NCBI RefSeq assembly: GCF_024684275.1
Contig: NZ_JAIKXF010000122.1
Coordinates: forward strand, 1 to 10,324
Reading direction: 5' to 3'
DNA from: Ruminococcus sp.
GTDB lineage: Bacteria; Bacillota_A; Clostridia; Oscillospirales; Ruminococcaceae
Length of the DNA: 10,324 nt
The notes beneath the pieces are model-generated. The model was not told where the DNA came from. It made no database searches and saw only the letters and a program-made list of their open reading frames with translations. Numbering within the stretch: position 1 is the stretch's first letter; every line of letters begins with the position of its first letter. Below, one piece after another: positions 1 to 10,324 of the stretch. The position numbers and the translations under genes were made by a program.

Positions 1-90
1 GCGGAGAAGTCCGCTGAATTTTGCAGAAGTATCGACCATCATCTGCTGGTCGCCGTCCATGTGGGTAATAAATTCTTTTTTCAGTTTCAT
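1..90 (-). CDS. PqqD-family peptide-binding protein, N-terminal 30 residues (runs off window)
   Basis: The first 30 codons of a gene that continues beyond coordinate 1. The visible protein starts MKLKKEFITHMDGDQQMMV and goes on to a FSGLLR motif. Basic start, short beta strands around a DGDQ turn, then F-(S/N)-G-L-(V/L)-R is the pattern I know from clostridial PqqD-family proteins. PqqD domains are small winged-helix-like folds that bind the leader of a ribosomally made peptide and present it to a maturase such as a radical SAM enzyme, lasso enzyme or kinase. The start is well supported: GGAGG lies 7 nt upstream, inside the end of the preceding gene. Its ATG overlaps that gene's TGA as ATGA, so the two are probably translationally coupled. 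The conserved C-terminal half (usually N-K-T-A and a helix) is outside the window, so the family call rests on the N-terminus and the neighbour. Confidence 0.7.
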   Translation of the reverse strand, partial: MKLKKEFITHMDGDQQMMVDTSAKFSGLLR

Positions 91-830
91 TTTGATTCCT
101 CCGTATTCATTCCCTGATAGGCGATGATCGCCGCATCGGGATCCATATTACAATCTAAATGGTATATTTTCAGATGCTCACACATTTTATCCAAAAGCGT
201 GAACACCGTCTGCATTTTTGCTCCGTTCATCGGTCTGTGTGTCTGCTGTAAGAGCATAGGGTATGCTTCTGATTTCGTCACTTGCCTGATCTGGTTTTCT
301 TCACCCCGATACAGCATACAGATTGCTTTCAGGGGAGCAGATGTATTGGTACTGATACGGTGCTTTCCGTCATAGGGCGTACCGTAGACAGTCACACCGC
401 TGTCCGCTATTTTCAAAAGCGGCTTATCATCATTTATCATGACAGCACGTTCACCGAAATGCTCACGCCAAAGGCGAGTATGAGTAGATTTTCCTGTGCC
501 AGATTTCGCCGTGAACAGGTAAGCAACGCCGTCTTCAGCAATGACAGAGCCATGAAACAGCAGAATGCCCTTATCAATGAGCCGTTCACATAAATGACGA
601 TAGACCGATAGTGTTTCAAGGTAGGAATCCGGGAAATCCCTGATCGGATGTCCTTCCTTCACATCGGTCTGTGCCGAACGCTGCCGTTCATAATCAATAT
701 CTGATTTCGTTGTTTTTATAGTAAATTCTATCGGTTCGTCACACTGATACTCTTTACAAAGCTCATGTACTTCTTCATATAATGAATCTATTGCAAAGGC
801 TGTATCTGCTATTTTATACGATTTTATCAT
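87..830 (-). CDS. HPr kinase/phosphorylase-like P-loop protein (RiPP-type HprK homologue)
   Basis: A 247-residue cytoplasmic protein. Residues 92-95 are FHGS and residues 108-116 are a Walker A loop, AKSGTGKST. Residues 133-137 are NDDKP, a Walker B-like acidic pair. The order HG, G-x-G-K-S/T, then DD about 20 residues later is that of the HprK catalytic fold, which also resembles PEP carboxykinase. Residues 1-80 lack the classical HprK N-terminal domain, and the protein is shorter than true HPr kinase (about 310 residues). It therefore belongs to the short HprK-like group found in peptide-modification clusters, where some members phosphorylate lasso peptides. A sugar-control role is unlikely here. 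The SD AGGAG abuts the stop of the upstream lipoprotein gene (9-nt gap), and the gene ends in ATGA with the PqqD-like gene. The substrate is not known from sequence; the 40-residue peptide at 3047-3169 is a candidate. Confidence 0.78.
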   Translation of the reverse strand: MIKSYKIADTAFAIDSLYEEVHELCKEYQCDEPIEFTIKTTKSDIDYERQRSAQTDVKEGHPIRDFPDSYLETLSVYRHLCERLIDKGILLFHGSVIAEDGVAYLFTAKSGTGKSTHTRLWREHFGERAVMINDDKPLLKIADSGVTVYGTPYDGKHRISTNTSAPLKAICMLYRGEENQIRQVTKSEAYPMLLQQTHRPMNGAKMQTVFTLLDKMCEHLKIYHLDCNMDPDAAIIAYQGMNTEESK

Positions 831-839
831 GGATTCTCC

Positions 840-1355
840 TTACCCTGCCGGAATAAACGGCAGTTCGATCGGAGCTTCTGTTACAATATGAAATTCTTCA
901 GTGGTATTATCTGTAGCTTCCTGTTCTTCAGATGCTCCCTCCGGCTCATAAATTAAATCACCTTCACTATTAGTTCTATCTCTTTCAGGAATATCTTCCT
1001 GCTCAGAGGAGGAGCCATTATTCTGTGAATGTTTTTCTTCACTTGCATTTTCTTTTTTTGAAGCATCTTCTTCCGATTCTGTATCGTGTTTTGTTTGATC
1101 ATCAGTTTTTGAGGAAGGTGTTTCTGTTTGTTTCACAGCAGTTGTGGTAGTTGTATCTACATCACGCTTTTTTTCATGTGTGCTAACTGAAGTCAATAAT
1201 GTTGTCTCAGTAGTTGCAGAAGTATGGCTGGTAGTCTCAGTACTATACGAAACAGTAGTTTCATGCTCAGTTGCATTTTTGTCATTAGAAGATCCGTTGT
1301 TGCATCCTGTCAGCATTATCGCACATACAGAAAACATCAATAATATTTTTTTCAT
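840..1355 (-). CDS. Lipoprotein with Thr/Ser/Glu-rich low-complexity stalk
   Basis: A 171-residue predicted lipoprotein. Residues 1-14 are a basic, hydrophobic signal. L15-T16-G17-C18 is a lipobox, so cleavage and lipidation at C18 are expected. Residues 19-150 are almost entirely T, S, E, D, K, N and Q with no predicted fold, which suggests an extended stalk crossing the cell wall. The last 20 residues change character and contain TEAPIELPFIPAG, a proline-rich hydrophobic tail. I recognise no catalytic domain. The SD AGAAAGG is about 9 nt upstream of the ATG. The gene follows a hairpin that ends the secreted-protein gene at 1495-2973, and is 9 nt from the HprK-like gene, so it looks co-transcribed with the HprK/PqqD pair. 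A role as anchor or immunity/reception factor is possible, but nothing in the sequence proves it. Confidence 0.8.
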   Translation of the reverse strand: MKKILLMFSVCAIMLTGCNNGSSNDKNATEHETTVSYSTETTSHTSATTETTLLTSVSTHEKKRDVDTTTTTAVKQTETPSSKTDDQTKHDTESEEDASKKENASEEKHSQNNGSSSEQEDIPERDRTNSEGDLIYEPEGASEEQEATDNTTEEFHIVTEAPIELPFIPAG

Positions 1356-1494: not shown

Positions 1495-2973
1495 TTAAAC
1501 ATTTTCAGCAGCCTGCCAGTACTTAAAGAGTGCTTTTACAAGATTCTTGCTCTTGCTTTTTACCTTTTCTGCTGATGCTGTTTTATCAGCCTTTACAACA
1601 GCATTGCAGTAATCCAGCGCACTATATTTAAGTGTATATGTTCCATCAACTGTCAAAGCATATTCAGTGTCAAGGTCTTTGGCAGAAATGCCAGTAATAT
1701 CTACATAATATGCATTATTACCAGCATCGAACTTTGGTGTCAATGTGGTATTGCCTATCTTAAATGTGTGATTCTTAATATCACCACTACCCAGCTTGAA
1801 GTAGTGACGCATTGTGATCTCAGAGAGGAATGATAATGTAGTACCGTAATATGACATATCTTTCATATTGCCACTTTCTGAATAAGTGTACTGAGCAAGA
1901 TCAGATGCTTCAACTTCTTCATAAGTATCCATTAAAAGAGGAGAAAGAACATAATTTGCGAGGGTCTCGTCATTGCCATCGTAATTATAGCTGAAGTAAA
2001 CCTGTGCTCTTGAACCGTAGTTCAGAAGTTCCGCTGTCAGAATCTTTGTCTCATACGCTGCATCAGATGCAATTACTTTCTGAGCATAATCCTGAAGATT
2101 TGTTGTAAATGTATCCACTGCATTGCCGTTTCCATCTATCAGTGAGCAAGTCAGGTTTGTAGTCATATCCTTTGCCGGAATTTTAGTTGTAACATAATAC
2201 TGATTTGCATCAGACCCTTTAACAGCTTTGTTGATGGGGAAAGTATCCTTTCTTCCGTCAGGAGTGCTAACCTCGATCTTTGCATTTGTATCTGCGACAA
2301 ATGAATCACTGATATTGAAATAGGTGTTCATTTTAATGCTGCCGTCAAGAACGACCTGACTGCCGGTAAAAAGACCATTCTTTACATCAAGATACGCAAA
2401 CTGCGTGCCTGTTCCAGCAGAAATAGCTTCCATAACAGGTACATATACCTGAACCTTGATACGATCTGTGTCAATACCGATCACATTGCCTGCGTTATCA
2501 TATACAGCATTTACAGGAATTGATACAGTCTTGGGATACCACGCTGTTTTTGTTTTAGAGTTATAGAGCTTCTTATCGAACTTTGCTGATGTCATATCAT
2601 TATAAATGTCAGTAAAGCCTGTGTATTCTTCAAGAACTGTTGCAGGAATTATCTCACCATCAGCATCTACAGACCTGAAAAATCCCATATAGCCTGTCTG
2701 TCCAGAGTAAGTCAAAGACTGAAAAGAAAGCTGAAGGGTTGCTTTACCCTCGCTGTCTACAACAACTTTACCCATCTGAATAAGAGCTGCATTTCCCATT
2801 GATTTGTCGTCAGGATTGTCAAACTTCTGAAGCGTTACAGGAACATAGCATTCCTTTACACTTGCTGCCTCAGCAACAAGGCCTACATTAGCGTGATTCT
2901 GCGGAATGAAACCGGGGAGTGCAGTAACTGTAAGTCCGGCGGCAAGTGCCATTGCCATAATCTTAAGTTTCAT
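1495..2973 (-). CDS. Secreted NEAT-like protein with Ruminococcus-type C-terminal module
   Basis: A 492-residue exported protein. I chose the ATG at 2973 because AAAAGGAG lies 10 nt upstream; the longer reading, 15 codons more, has no SD and starts inside a hairpin. The signal peptide spans residues 1-36, with a hydrophobic core and cleavage near VAEA/A. Residues 42-195 look like a NEAT-type beta sandwich: Y-V-P-V-T-L, then K-S-M-G-N-A-A, an alternating V-D-x-x-G-K-A-T-L strand, and a G-Y-M-G-F-F strand. NEAT domains of surface proteins often bind haem, but I cannot identify an axial tyrosine with confidence. Residues 210-300 are another beta region. Residues 310-492 are a module also present at the end of the 1062-residue protein (NYGSRAQVYF, YYGTTLSF, NHTFKIG, VDGTYTLKYS, LVKALFKY). 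No sortase motif or transmembrane tail is present, so the protein is probably released or held non-covalently. Confidence 0.75.
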   Translation of the reverse strand: MKLKIMAMALAAGLTVTALPGFIPQNHANVGLVAEAASVKECYVPVTLQKFDNPDDKSMGNAALIQMGKVVVDSEGKATLQLSFQSLTYSGQTGYMGFFRSVDADGEIIPATVLEEYTGFTDIYNDMTSAKFDKKLYNSKTKTAWYPKTVSIPVNAVYDNAGNVIGIDTDRIKVQVYVPVMEAISAGTGTQFAYLDVKNGLFTGSQVVLDGSIKMNTYFNISDSFVADTNAKIEVSTPDGRKDTFPINKAVKGSDANQYYVTTKIPAKDMTTNLTCSLIDGNGNAVDTFTTNLQDYAQKVIASDAAYETKILTAELLNYGSRAQVYFSYNYDGNDETLANYVLSPLLMDTYEEVEASDLAQYTYSESGNMKDMSYYGTTLSFLSEITMRHYFKLGSGDIKNHTFKIGNTTLTPKFDAGNNAYYVDITGISAKDLDTEYALTVDGTYTLKYSALDYCNAVVKADKTASAEKVKSKSKNLVKALFKYWQAAENV

Positions 2974-3001
2974 TTTTACATTTCTCCTTTTCATGACGAT
3001 A

Positions 3002-3029
3002 GGGCAGACAAAAGACATTCTGCCTGCCC
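3002..3029 (-). other. Intercistronic hairpin between peptide gene and secreted-protein gene
   Basis: On the minus-strand RNA, GGGCAGGCA pairs with UGUCUGCCC (nine pairs, one G-U) around a 10-nt loop. It sits 17 nt past the stop of the 40-residue peptide gene and 28 nt before the ATG at 2973. No U-tract follows, so full termination is unlikely. A hairpin in this place commonly protects the upstream segment from 3' decay and lowers expression of the downstream gene. Confidence 0.55.
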
Positions 3030-3046
3030 CATCTGATTATTCATAA

Positions 3047-3169
3047 TTAGCCTTTGATGATATCACCGATATTACCATTAGTATCGTCGCCGATACCGCT
3101 GGTTGTGATAACATCCTCGCTCTCGAAACGGATTACCTCAGTTTCAGGTGTGATGTAAACATCCTTCAT
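3047..3169 (-). CDS. 40-residue peptide with VITTSG motif, candidate precursor peptide
   Basis: A complete small gene in the gap between the two large secreted-protein genes. It starts MKDVYITPETEVIRFESED, continues VITTSGIGDD and ends GDIIKG. The ATG has AAGGAGG 8 nt upstream, the best ribosome site of the window, and lies 17 nt after the previous stop. There is no signal peptide, no cysteine and no membrane segment. The layout is Y-x-x-P near the start, an acidic E-V-I-x-F-E-x-E-D block, then T-T-S-G and a Gly/Asn/Asp-rich tail. From memory, similar short proteins (Y-x-x-P, E-V-I, E-D-V-I-T-T-S) are common in gut Firmicutes as unannotated ORFs; I could not search to confirm it. The Y-x-x-P start resembles leaders bound by PqqD-type proteins, and a PqqD/HprK pair lies in the same gene string. 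Function is inferred, not shown. Confidence 0.82.
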   Translation of the reverse strand: MKDVYITPETEVIRFESEDVITTSGIGDDTNGNIGDIIKG

Positions 3170-3186
3170 TCAAAACGCCTCCTTCA

Positions 3187-6100
3187 TTAAGCTGTAGTCT
3201 TAGTAAGCTCTGCGTACTGATACAGCGCCTTTACAAGTGCCTGCAATTCATTGAGCGCTCCACTCTTGACCTCAGTCGCATTCAAAGCAGCGGCAATGTA
3301 ATTGTAAACCCCGTACTGGAAATCTGTACCGTCCACAGTAATCTTAAACGGATTACCAAGCTGATTTGCATAAATGTTCTCGATTGCGATATAGTAGCCA
3401 CCGTCAACAGCAACGGCATCTACAGCCTTATCGTTCACTGCGAAGCTGTGATTCTCAATTGCATCATCTACAGTGAAGTAAAGTCTGATATCGGTAGTAT
3501 AATCAAATACAACTGCAGCACCATAATACTTGATGTTATCGCCAAGCTGAGGTACAGTAAATGTTGTTGCATTATCAGCAGTTTCCGGCAGAGTATTGTC
3601 AACATTTGCATATGCACGTTCTGTGTCAACATAAGCATTAGCTTCTGCATCCTTCTTTACAAAGTATTCCTGTGCATAACCGCCGTAAACAAGCAGGGAC
3701 TTTGCGATTGCAGCGTCCTTATCGGAAACTTCAACGCCTTCGGTCGGATTCTCTGCATACCAGATCAGCTTTTCAAGATACTCCTGAACTGAGTATGTAA
3801 ACTCATAAGAACCGATCTTCACTTTCAGTGTCTGTCCGATCTCCTTCGGAGCAACATTGAACTCGATCTTTCCGTCTTCACCGACTTCGACAGTCTCTGT
3901 TGAGCCGTCAGCCTTTGTGATATTAGCTGTAAGATCTCCGTCCTGTGCTGCTTCAAGGTTGTTCTTATTCATGCTGAGGTAGAAATCGAATGTTACGTCC
4001 TTATCAAGCTGTGCATTGTAACCTGCAACAGTGATGCCGTCAAGAGCCTTGATTGCATTTTCAAGGTTTGTTCCGAGTTCCTCCAGCTTATCAGCAGAGA
4101 TCTCAGCTTTATTCAGCGGATCGTATGTACCGTCGAAAGCATCAAGCACTGCATCATATGCTTTCTGGACTTTTGCAATTGAATCTGTAGAAAAGCTCTT
4201 TTTGCTTGCAATTTTCAGCTTTGCAAGCTCAACCTGTCTTGTGAGGGCACTTATATCATATGAAAATAGAGCTTTCACATCATTTTCATTCATATTCTCT
4301 TTAAGAACAGGATTGAAAAAAATCAATTCTGCTTGTAATTCATCGACACCACAATTTTCAAATTCTGTGCCAGAAATTGCAGCCATCATAGGTGAAGCAA
4401 TTGCAACTATATAAGAATTTGATTCATTAGAATATGATTCATCACGAAGTGAAATAACAGCTCTTTCAACACATCCCCATTCAGAGATTGCATCATAATC
4501 GCAGTTATTAGCAAGGCTTCCGTCATCATTAGTCAGGAATTTCAAATATTTTGTTGAATCTTTATAAACATTATTTTTTTCTGAGATATTATCACAGAAT
4601 ATATCGCCCAAATACAGCCCAACCACATCATCTTTAGCCATATCATGAAAATTCATATATAATGTTTTATTGCCATGTTCATCAACAACAATATATGCAT
4701 CGTGGTCAACCGTTCCATTCGCCATAGACATGTTAGCTGTAGTAAGATATTTTCTAAGATGAACATTTATACTGTAAACGCCTGTTTCCAAATCATTTAC
4801 ATTAGCAGTCTTGTTGTTTTTCATTAGTGCAAACGTATAGCCATTTTTGAACTCTTTAGTGATCGACCATGTTTTATTTTCCAAATCAAATTCATTCGAC
4901 CTTAAATCATGTGCAATAGCACCTGTACCATTTTCAGAATAGTATTCTGTAAAATAATCGTTCATATTAAAATCATCTGGTAACTTAATATTTAAAGTGG
5001 TTGCACCTTTTATTTCAACAGGATTATTATCTTCATCTTCAAAGTAAACGGTATATACTTCTACTGATTCTTTTTTATACGCAAGCGAGTCAGCGAAAGA
5101 AGAATAGTAATTATTATCTTCTCCAGCTACAACCCTTAAATGCACTGATTTATCAGTATAAAAACGAGTTGAATCTGTGTCAATCCAAATTTTATCTTCA
5201 CCATTTACTGTATACTTTAAATTGATGGGGGTTGGTTTTGTAGCGCTTAATACAGGAACAAATGTGCCATCGGTTCCATCGTCTTTACTTTCGTAATCAA
5301 CATATACATATTTTCCGAAAATAAGTTCTTCATCATTTTTATAGTTAATTTCATAATAAACACCATTTTCATCTTCGCCATAATTGAGCGCAGAGAAAGT
5401 TGTATTAACTGGAGTATAAAGCCAATCTACATATGAGCCGCTAAGGTTTTTGAGGTTAGGAGTTGTCATTACATCAGGCTTGGTAATTTCTTCGTTAATA
5501 TAGTATCTTATGTTGTATCCATCGTCGTTTAATGTTCCAAGAGCACAACGTGTCAAATTTCTTATGTTACTATATCCTGTAAAATTAACAATTCTAAGGT
5601 AATTTGCATTCCACTCTTGAACATCTGTTGCTACAAGACCATCTGCATCTACAATTTTCCCCGAAGAAGCATTAGCAACTAATTCGTCTTTTGAAATGTA
5701 ATCGGCTACATCCAGCATAAGATTAATATAGCCAAAATTGGTTTTTTTACCCATCGCACCACTTCTGGTCTGTTGATTATTCCATCTTAAAATACTTACA
5801 GTGTTATTATAATCCTCAATTTCAAAAGTTACATATGCAACATCTAATGTGCTATCATTTTTATCGTTGTCAACATATATGTCAGCATACTTAGTTGCTG
5901 GGTCATTTGTGGAACTCCACATATACGCATCATCAATACCATCAACCCAGTTTGTACACTTGTTAACGTTAGGTAAATCTGAGACTTTTTCTTTTAGTAT
6001 ATTAGGATAAGACTTTAAATCCATTTGCGAGTCAGATAGATATGACTGCTTAACAGGAACAAAAACATCGTAAAGGCTCCAGTTTTCAACCCCAAGGGTC

Positions 6101-6375
6101 AAATACGTTTTATCCTCAGTTATGTTCAATATAGCTCTTGGCGATAAATGTGTATAACATCCATCGTTTCCATTGCTTTGATCGATATTATTAAAAGTAC
6201 TAAGCGATGTATATTTTATCGGAATGATATACTCTCCATCATCTAAACATAACGAATTATCTGCGGCATAGGCAGAAGAAAAGGACATAAATGTTGTTGT
6301 AAGCCCATTAACCGCAGTTAAAGAAGTAATCGTGGTTGCTACGGATAAAACCAATGCAATAAAGCGCTTATGCAT
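3187..6375 (-). CDS. Large secreted multidomain protein with NEAT-like and FIVAR-like regions
   Basis: A 1062-residue exported protein. The start is supported by AAGGAG 6 nt before the ATG. The signal peptide covers residues 1-37, with cleavage at AYA/A. Residues 45-230 begin DGEYIIPIKY and look like a first NEAT-like beta domain. Residues 250-520 hold further beta-rich stretches, including an Ig-like segment near 438-520. Residues 530-690 form a second NEAT-like domain (GVYSINVHLRKY, NMSMANG, KTLYMNFHDM). Residues 705-780 are helical and FIVAR-like (KVQKAYDAVLDAF, LENAIKALDG). Residues 785-1062 are the C-terminal module shared with the 492-residue protein (LVYGGYAQEYF, YYGAAVVF, NHSFAVND, VDGTDFQYG, LVKALYQY). 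There is no LPxTG, dockerin or transmembrane tail. A surface or released binding protein is likely; the ligand is unknown. The first two thirds are clearly richer in AT than the last third. Confidence 0.78.
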   Translation of the reverse strand: MHKRFIALVLSVATTITSLTAVNGLTTTFMSFSSAYAADNSLCLDDGEYIIPIKYTSLSTFNNIDQSNGNDGCYTHLSPRAILNITEDKTYLTLGVENWSLYDVFVPVKQSYLSDSQMDLKSYPNILKEKVSDLPNVNKCTNWVDGIDDAYMWSSTNDPATKYADIYVDNDKNDSTLDVAYVTFEIEDYNNTVSILRWNNQQTRSGAMGKKTNFGYINLMLDVADYISKDELVANASSGKIVDADGLVATDVQEWNANYLRIVNFTGYSNIRNLTRCALGTLNDDGYNIRYYINEEITKPDVMTTPNLKNLSGSYVDWLYTPVNTTFSALNYGEDENGVYYEINYKNDEELIFGKYVYVDYESKDDGTDGTFVPVLSATKPTPINLKYTVNGEDKIWIDTDSTRFYTDKSVHLRVVAGEDNNYYSSFADSLAYKKESVEVYTVYFEDEDNNPVEIKGATTLNIKLPDDFNMNDYFTEYYSENGTGAIAHDLRSNEFDLENKTWSITKEFKNGYTFALMKNNKTANVNDLETGVYSINVHLRKYLTTANMSMANGTVDHDAYIVVDEHGNKTLYMNFHDMAKDDVVGLYLGDIFCDNISEKNNVYKDSTKYLKFLTNDDGSLANNCDYDAISEWGCVERAVISLRDESYSNESNSYIVAIASPMMAAISGTEFENCGVDELQAELIFFNPVLKENMNENDVKALFSYDISALTRQVELAKLKIASKKSFSTDSIAKVQKAYDAVLDAFDGTYDPLNKAEISADKLEELGTNLENAIKALDGITVAGYNAQLDKDVTFDFYLSMNKNNLEAAQDGDLTANITKADGSTETVEVGEDGKIEFNVAPKEIGQTLKVKIGSYEFTYSVQEYLEKLIWYAENPTEGVEVSDKDAAIAKSLLVYGGYAQEYFVKKDAEANAYVDTERAYANVDNTLPETADNATTFTVPQLGDNIKYYGAAVVFDYTTDIRLYFTVDDAIENHSFAVNDKAVDAVAVDGGYYIAIENIYANQLGNPFKITVDGTDFQYGVYNYIAAALNATEVKSGALNELQALVKALYQYAELTKTTA

Positions 6376-8588: not shown

Positions 8589-10076
8589 TTAATACTTTTG
8601 CATATTATAATTATCATCTTGCTGCTGTGAACCATCCTCTTTAATTCCAAGTTCCTGTTTCTTGCGTTGGATAAGGTGACGAAGTTTCTTATCAGTGCGT
8701 GATATTCTTCTTCGGCTTCGAGCGTTGTCTTCTTCTATGATCCGCCCGAAGTCAACAAGTAAACTGACAATGGTATTTGATATCATATAGTTGTGACCGT
8801 TATCATAATTAATCAGCCTTTCTGCGTACTCGTTTCCTTCGGAAGCAGACTTCGTAAGCCATTCCAAAGCTTTTTCCCTGTCGGAAGCGATTCCGTCTTT
8901 TCCGAAAAGATATATCTTTCCAAGCCAATATGAAGCCCACGAATTATCATCAGCAATAGATTCAAACAGCTTAACCGCTTTGATAACGTCATATTTTTCT
9001 TGTGTAAGATATAGTTTTGCAAGCTGATATATCGCATGACGGTTATTAGCCGATGATGCTGCCGACAGATATTTTTCAGCTTTGTCATAATCAACGGGAA
9101 TGTATTCACCGTTAAAATACATCTTTCCCAGCATATATTGTGCATATTTGTTATCAGCCACAGCAGGCTTTTCCAGCCACTTGAAAGCTATGTCAGGTGC
9201 TTTTTCAGTACCGCATCCGTAAAGGTACATCTTGCCGATACGGTATTGAAAGTACGAACTCATTTTCTTTGCTTTAGGCTCTATATCAATAAAACCTGCA
9301 AGTGCCTTTGCAAAATACCGCTTAGCTGTTTCATCATCGGTACTGTACCTACCCATGTCATAAATAGCAAGTATATTTCCTTTATCAGCCTCCGACTTCA
9401 TAACAGCGAGCGCCTCCGCTTTTTTATCATCTGTCGGGTACTGTGATTTGAGTATCCTCGACGCTGACTTGTATCCATCTGACCATTTGAAATAATAATT
9501 GCTGCCGCTTTCTTCAGTATCAACATACTCATAGTCATCAGCGAAAGATACATCAGTATCTTCCTCAATATCATCGTGAATATCTTCAAGCTCGCTGTCA
9601 GGAATCTCAATCATATTTACGACTTTTCTTATGATCATATTTTTTACCGAGCGGAACTCCTTGTTCTCAGCAAGCGTTGGAAGTTCCTTGTCTTTTTGCG
9701 TGTACATTTTATACTTAGCCTTTTCAAATTCGCACCACTTATCATACAGCTTTTGAATATCTTCATTCTGTGATAACAGAAAAAATATATCATCTACTGT
9801 CTGCTTGATCTCTTTAGGAAGATATCCATACATCTTCTTTCCGCCGACGCTTTGCAGTTGAGCATTTAATTTTCTGACCTTTGTAACAAGCCTTTCATCA
9901 ACAACTCCGCTTCCGATCCGAGATAATATTTCACTCATCTGATCTTCGGACAGTGCTTTCAGTTCATCACGGGTAAGAGTTTGCTCCTGATAAATACTTT
10001 TCATATCTTCATGAAAAATATCGTTTGCAAAAGCTGAACGTATTGCAGCCATACCTTCTTTTGTAAGGTATCCCAT
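8589..10076 (-). pseudogene. MobP2/MobL-type relaxase, C-terminal SEL1-repeat part without catalytic domain
   Basis: About 495 codons remain open. They match what I know of the C-terminal half of clostridial MobP2/MobL relaxases: an EDMKSIYQEQTLTRDELK helix, GKKMYGYLPKEIKQTVDDI, and LAENKEFRSVKNMIIRK. Four to five SEL1 repeats follow (YRIGKMYLYGCGTEK, YAQYMLGKMYFNGEY, YQLAKLYL, YWLGKIYLFGKDG), then a basic tail with DKKLRHLIQRKKQELG. Full relaxases of this kind carry the DNA-nicking domain with a histidine cluster before this point; nothing of it is present. The longest reading begins 19 codons upstream in sequence that makes better sense in another frame, and none of the possible ATGs has an SD. 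So this is most likely a broken relaxase gene left by a mobilisable or conjugative element, though a free-standing SEL1 protein cannot be fully excluded. Confidence 0.72.
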
Positions 10077-10324
10077 CACCAAAATCAATATCATAGAGGA
10101 GAATACAGTGATACATATTTTCCTCGTCATCATAGTACATGAAATCCTTGTTTCTTTCTAGAAACGCCAAACTCATAAAAGGAAACCGTGAGATATGCTC
10201 GAAGTTTTTATGAGTTACGGCAATTGCCTTTTCGATTACACATTTTTTAACATTAAAAGTGGCAGGTTTCTCCTCAAGATGTGTGTTCAACACCAGCTTA
10301 TCAGAAAACTCCATAAAGTGATCT
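10009..10324 (-). pseudogene. Truncated mobile-element ORF (possibly DUF6329-like), fused out of frame to the relaxase remnant
   Basis: An open frame enters from beyond the right edge and reads MEFSDKLVLNTHLEEKPAT, then CVIEKAIAVTH and MYHCILLYDIDFGDGI. The series C-V-x-E-K-A-I-x-V, F-x-x-x-K-D-x-M-Y and H-C-x-L-x-Y-D-x-x-x-x-D-G-I is what I recall from small proteins on clostridial conjugative elements. The domain name is from memory and needs an HMM check. In those proteins DGI is followed by L/V, an acidic stretch and Y-x-Y-A-R-Y. Here the frame turns basic (PYKRRYG) and stops at 10009, just where the relaxase frame becomes meaningful (near 10070). No SD precedes the ATG at 10314 and the frame is open to the edge, so the true start may be outside. 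I read it as a 5' gene fragment ending at a deletion joint. Confidence 0.5.

Follow-up and report, generated by a model that had tools for sequence, protein, structure and literature searches.

A probable precursor of a linear phosphopeptide is encoded behind an exoprotein gene in Ruminococcus and belongs to a large family of Clostridia

We report that a 40-codon open reading frame of Ruminococcus sp., absent from the annotation, belongs to a large unnamed family of small proteins under purifying selection and is probably the source of a linear phosphopeptide precursor. The window, by which we mean the whole 10,324-nucleotide stretch that was analysed, carries this frame within a same-strand series of genes that runs from a large exoprotein to an HprK-like kinase and the beginning of a PqqD-like gene. 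The closest known counterpart in kind is the linear polyphosphorylated peptides (LPP) of Paenibacillus alginolyticus, the products of lppAKBSDN (Nat Commun, May 2026; PMC13381572). According to that report, the kinase LppK places several phosphates on Ser3 and leaves Thr or Tyr at that position unmodified, the peptidase LppS, aided by LppB, cuts before Ser3, and the peptides are products of single clusters in Bacilli whose function is not known. The features of the small gene are as follows.

3047..3169, minus strand: precursor peptide, 40 aa (single-sequence and profile searches; family alignment A1)
3178..3184, minus strand: AAGGAGG ribosome site, 8 nt spacer to the ATG
3146..3157, minus strand: Y5-x-x-P8, proposed RRE-binding motif (column conservation; role by analogy with PMC13381572)
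3098..3100, minus strand: Ser24, proposed phosphorylation site (invariant column, 88/88)

The translation is MKDVYITPETEVIRFESEDVITTSGIGDDTNGNIGDIIKG, in which the YxxP motif reads Y5-I-T-P8. The preliminary description had credited this frame with the best ribosome site of the window, and rightly so: AAGGAGG occurs there once on both strands counted together, whereas the other genes of the window have weaker sites such as AAGGAG. Among the relatives of the peptide, 75 of 83 have a Shine-Dalgarno-like site against 33 of 830 control ATGs, under a rule that allows each peptide a choice among nearby starts. An inverted repeat (GGGCAG...CTGCCC) with no T run can be seen by eye at about 2990-3025, past the stop of the peptide gene and ahead of the likely start of the next one.

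With the window peptide as a single query we found seven homologues other than itself that reach E ≤ 1.4e-6, plus a further one with E 0.22. A search of genome contigs with the kinase gave 80 loci, and an iterated profile, run on the 12,526 small ORFs taken from 81 records, gave 29 peptides at E < 0.01 in 26 records, namely 25 of the kinase loci and the window; reversed ORFs, carried through the same five rounds as a control, gave best E-values of 0.29, 1.6, 0.82, 0.82 and 0.82. Applied to the protein collection, the resulting profile, A1, matched 2082 proteins with E ≤ 0.01, and the few names given by the source among the 120 matches listed are all "hypothetical" or "uncharacterized". The profile derives mainly from kinase-adjacent peptides and is thus biased toward them; the genome searches made with it then ignored position.

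Over 91 distinct peptides the leader consensus is YxxPxxExxxFxxEDVITTS. Tyr5 is Y in 80, F in 8 and M in 1 of 89 rows, Pro8 is P in 67/89, Asp19 is conserved in 86/89, and the Ser24 column holds Ser in all 88 rows that have a residue there; choosing peptides by profile inflates conservation in every column, and Ser24 still exceeds its neighbours. Past Ser24 the tails are variable: their median length is 15 residues, in a range of 4 to 44 (n=89), and their net charge averages -2.8. In the leader, for the 84 of 91 peptides that were usable, pN/pS is 0.27 among the 580 pairs of at least 65% identity, 0.37 among the 1973 pairs of at least 50%, and 0.44 over all 3485 pairs. These data redraw two points of the preliminary description. 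The I-T-T-S stretch is present as it had claimed and forms the end of a conserved leader; the Gly/Asn/Asp tail is the variable core. Of the three residues it had offered as phosphorylation sites, Ser24 is the likely one on the strength of its column, whereas Thr22 (72/89) and Thr23 (55/89) vary; the choice of Ser24 fits the behaviour of LppK, whose target is Ser3 and which leaves an S3T variant unmodified (PMC13381572).

The neighbouring genes of the window, in the order of transcription, are these.

3187..6375, minus strand: large exoprotein, 1062 aa, directly upstream of the peptide; its last ~220 residues are a shared C-terminal domain
1495..3018, minus strand: another exoprotein, NEAT-like in its N part and ending in that same shared domain; start probably at 2973
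840..1355, minus strand: Ser/Thr-rich lipoprotein with the end IELPFIPAG (from the translation; similar tails in relatives)
87..830, minus strand: HprK-like kinase, LppK-like (weak profile matches and a P-loop)
1..90, minus strand: start of a PqqD-like (LppB-like) RRE gene, truncated where the window ends

The peptide gene follows the 1062-residue exoprotein by 17 nt, and the start of the second exoprotein gene is likelier at 2973, where an ATG has AAGGAG ahead of it. Both flanking products have hydrophobic, signal-like N-termini when judged by eye, which agrees with the earlier placement of the gene between two secreted-protein genes. The kinase and the PqqD-like gene, also named in the preliminary description, were likewise found, the latter within the window as its first 30 codons only; their translation is identical to residues 1-30 of a PqqD-like protein from Ruminococcus flavefaciens ND2009 that is 85 residues long. 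The kinase had zero matches to Pfam profiles, and its NCBIfam matches are weak and below the curated cut-offs, the best being to ScmC of the SynChlorMet cassette (TIGR04249, E 1.7e-6, at 27.6 bits against an equivalog cut-off of 125) and another to HprK-related A (E 0.0027). The SynChlorMet cassette has two radical SAM proteins, of which the window has none. Its SGxGKST P-loop is invariant and shared with 14 relatives.

The preliminary description had proposed a precursor of a modified peptide, whose homologues should then be tied to PqqD/HprK-like genes and not occur at random. Among 247 genomes of the family to which the nearest genome belongs, 25 have the peptide, 38 have the kinase when that of locus L071 is the query, and 24 have both, so that the kinase is present in 24/25 genomes with the peptide and 14/222 without it (Fisher 1.7e-22). 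In a sample of 291 genomes across the class the corresponding figures are 38, 84 and 37, the kinase being present in 37/38 genomes with the peptide and 47/253 without (Fisher 3.0e-22). A SipW-like peptidase was found in all 25 peptide-bearing genomes of the family sample and in 15 of the 222 others. Two genomes, G178 and G505, have peptides and no credible kinase match; the peptidase is present in G178. From the side of the kinase the tie is looser, a recognisable peptide lying in only 25 of the 80 kinase loci; some loci are cut by contig ends. Because kinase and peptidase co-occur with the peptide in this way, and because its relatives adjoin LPP-type genes, the idea of a modified-peptide precursor is well supported. 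Distant kinase-PqqD pairs in many of the loci L051-L079 have no recognisable peptide, and the genes beside them are ApbE-like (by eye), of 495 residues, or GroEL-like.

The peptide genes are scattered, and most of them directly follow a secreted-protein gene. In the family sample we counted 59 peptide places, with more than one place in 16 of 25 genomes and a maximum of six; 19 of the 59 have a kinase match no more than 10 kb away, and the other 40, including the five of G178, lie elsewhere or on another contig. One genome of the class sample, G462, has 24 peptide matches and two kinases. An upstream gene was scored as an exoprotein gene if it shared the strand, lay no more than 130 bp away, encoded at least 200 residues and was signal-peptide-like. 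Among the 72 distinct peptides of the fetched loci, 12 without a complete upstream gene were excluded; the remaining 60 had such a gene in 42 cases and lacked it in 18, against 57 of 589 control genes from the same loci (Fisher 1.1e-24), the signal-peptide rule being crude, the controls being longest-ORF calls with spurious ORFs among them, and 40 of the loci having been picked around the better peptide places. Without the signal-peptide criterion the counts are 50/60 and 151/589. In seven genomes of other taxonomic families, 20 loci gave 22 peptides. For 18 of these the adjacent upstream gene is complete, and in 18/18 it shares the strand of the peptide and stops no more than 50 nt from the peptide start.

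Many of these upstream proteins have a C-terminal domain in common, detected by BLAST in 24 of the 37 large upstream proteins of the first set. The domain is found in 18/25 peptide-bearing genomes and 5/222 others, and lies directly upstream of 20 of the 59 peptide places. Of the 52 places where it occurs, 19 are followed by a peptide, so that the majority of its copies are without a recognised one. Its AlphaFold model (mean pLDDT 81) is an Ig-like sandwich with helices, for which no clear relative was found. Together, these gene positions suggest that each peptide partners its exoprotein. Since most precursors are encoded directly behind a gene for a secreted protein, the likeliest place of action is outside the cell, on the adjacent exoprotein or together with it. 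As far as our literature searches reach, this pairing is new.

The same arrangement invites another reading, in which the peptide stays unmodified and acts on the exoprotein encoded upstream as a chaperone-like helper or a regulator, and its tie to the kinase genes is historical. The close spacing behind exoprotein genes, often an overlap or at most 20 nt, would fit. We consider this unlikely, however, because the peptide depends, at the level of genomes, on the kinase and the SipW-like peptidase, and because a protein of this sort would have no need of a YxxP leader with RRE-type motifs and an invariant Ser.

The modified-peptide precursor is instead what the operons of relatives point to. 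Loci L003, L033 and L071 have the order exoprotein, peptide, lipoprotein, kinase, PqqD, S26, ABC exporter and NTP_transf_5, and L001 has the same order with two additions, namely one more exoprotein and, placed between kinase and PqqD, one more peptide; the S26, ABC and NTP_transf_5 genes, which lie beyond the window end inside the RRE gene, are known from these loci. The PqqD, ABC and NTP_transf_5 proteins were confirmed with Pfam, the full-length PqqD-like relative of L071 matching PF05402. For the S26 protein the nearest profile is that of archaeal-type signal peptidase I, with a match below the cut-off, and Ser30, His70 and Asp85 are invariant across 17 SipW-like relatives. In PMC13381572 the catalytic residues of LppS are S29/H68/D93, and since this His-Asp spacing differs from the clostridial one, the assignment of Asp85 is tentative.

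The LPP system of PMC13381572 shares with these loci a precursor, an HprK-like kinase, a discrete RRE, a SipW-like leader peptidase, an MsbA-like ABC transporter and an NTP transferase; the order lppA-K-B-S-D-N is matched in L003, L033, L071 and L001, and both kinds of leader have YxxP and a conserved Ser some 18-19 residues past the Tyr (19 in 75 of the 88 clostridial peptides measured, 18 in LppA by our count from that source). The two differ in their hosts, Bacilli and Clostridia respectively, and in the leader itself, YxxPxVLxHQxIxFETxxS in LPP as given there against YxxPxxExxxFxxEDVITTS here. Most clostridial precursors, moreover, are encoded at a distance from the kinase and follow exoprotein genes, and a lipoprotein with an ELPF[IV]P tail is present. 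The LPP motif Px9Fx[T/A] was found in 0/91 clostridial peptides; the cut site can therefore not be placed by homology, and the system is LPP-like in working, a Clostridia variant rather than a strict member. Aligning on the Ser would put the leader cut near Ile21-Thr22, which is a guess, as the flanking residues differ.

Phosphorylated lasso peptides of the paeninodin type also combine an HprK-like kinase, an RRE, an NTP transferase, an ABC exporter and a [Y/W]xxP leader, and PMC13381572 and PMC7533575 place the kinase and NTP_transf_5 in lasso clusters too, so that the window peptide might be a lasso precursor on which the kinase and the nucleotidyltransferase carry out secondary tailoring. 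The PqqD-like protein is near lasso RREs as well: its profile matches four solved RREs, including LppB (9x8z, E 0.001), and matches lasso RREs more strongly (TbiB1, E 4.3e-8). We nevertheless give this reading very little credence. The lasso leader peptidase B2 (PF13471) is above cut-off in 0/25 peptide-bearing genomes, with weak matches in 2/25; no cyclase gene was seen in the loci with profiled neighbours; and the variable tails are very short, down to the four residues GIYE in L010 and L013, which could not form a lasso.

A third possibility is that the precursor is mainly a substrate of a radical SAM enzyme, giving a crosslinked peptide to which phosphorylation is accessory. Radical SAM/SPASM maturases do adjoin peptides in L016 and L044, and a related gene does so in L101; these are three places only, and no radical SAM gene is present in the window or labelled in the operons of L001, L003, L033 and L071, which makes this account highly improbable for the family. 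In L016 the maturase gene (930-2342) is placed between peptide and kinase; in L044 two such genes (10009-11367 and 11398-12759, the second assigned by BLAST clustering only) stand just after two peptides, and the related gene of L101, also assigned by BLAST clustering only, is beside two peptides. These neighbours suggest a crosslinked subtype. That the frame is a chance or untranslated one, as its shortness and lack of a name in databases might lead one to think, is scarcely conceivable given the 2082-protein family, the pN/pS of 0.27, the Shine-Dalgarno-like sites and the absence of any reversed-ORF match below E 0.29.

For the phosphopeptide precursor we propose the following pathway, most of it by analogy with PMC13381572. 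The 40-mer would be made, probably together with the exoprotein encoded just upstream; its YxxP leader would be bound by the PqqD-like RRE; Ser24 would be phosphorylated by the HprK-like kinase, perhaps several times; and the leader would be cut off by the SipW-like peptidase at a point some residues ahead of Ser24. From gene content and position, NTP_transf_5 may attach a further group and the ABC exporter may take the product out. A single enzyme set could handle as many as two dozen precursors encoded at scattered places in a genome.

More tentatively, one may picture a surface labelling that acts in trans, in which one phosphopeptide machine serves many peptides, each dedicated to an exoprotein, and the finished peptide is bound or joined to the exoprotein C-terminal domain, with the ELPF[IV]P lipoprotein as its membrane competitor or dock; we regard this as possible and more doubtful than the precursor assignment. 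If it were true, the peptide would control the retention or release of the exoprotein. In ten loci a lipoprotein-like ORF behind the peptide has LPxxP or LPF in its last residues, a rule that 19 of all 2768 ORFs of 90-320 residues satisfy, and some peptides end similarly, with VIELPFIKAGSEE (L001), ELPFVPAEK (L113) and ELPWVPANE (L043). One idea is that this tail, common to lipoproteins and some precursors, is a docking tag.

LPP-like precursors now appear as widespread in Clostridia, multicopy and encoded beside exoproteins, and the neighbouring exoprotein is the first concrete handle on the function of LPP-type peptides. PMC13381572 gives a radius of 5 kb around the cluster for the precursor search, which is here extended past the cluster; the leader motif, the invariant Ser and the unnamed exoprotein domain are directly testable features.

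Two further observations concern neighbouring genes. At 8589-10133 the window encodes a protein with Sel1 repeats; over residues 21-167 it matches the final part of the model for the MobP3 relaxase, with an E-value of 3.2e-34 and a score below the cut-off. The protein of 1495-3018 has 34% identity over 211 residues to a NEAT protein of L001 (R. flavefaciens ND2009), where, at 14356-20159, the LPP-like operon continues directly into iron/heme genes encoding NEAT, Shp heme-binding, Peripla_BP_2 and FecCD proteins, an ABC ATPase and an iron-dependent repressor.
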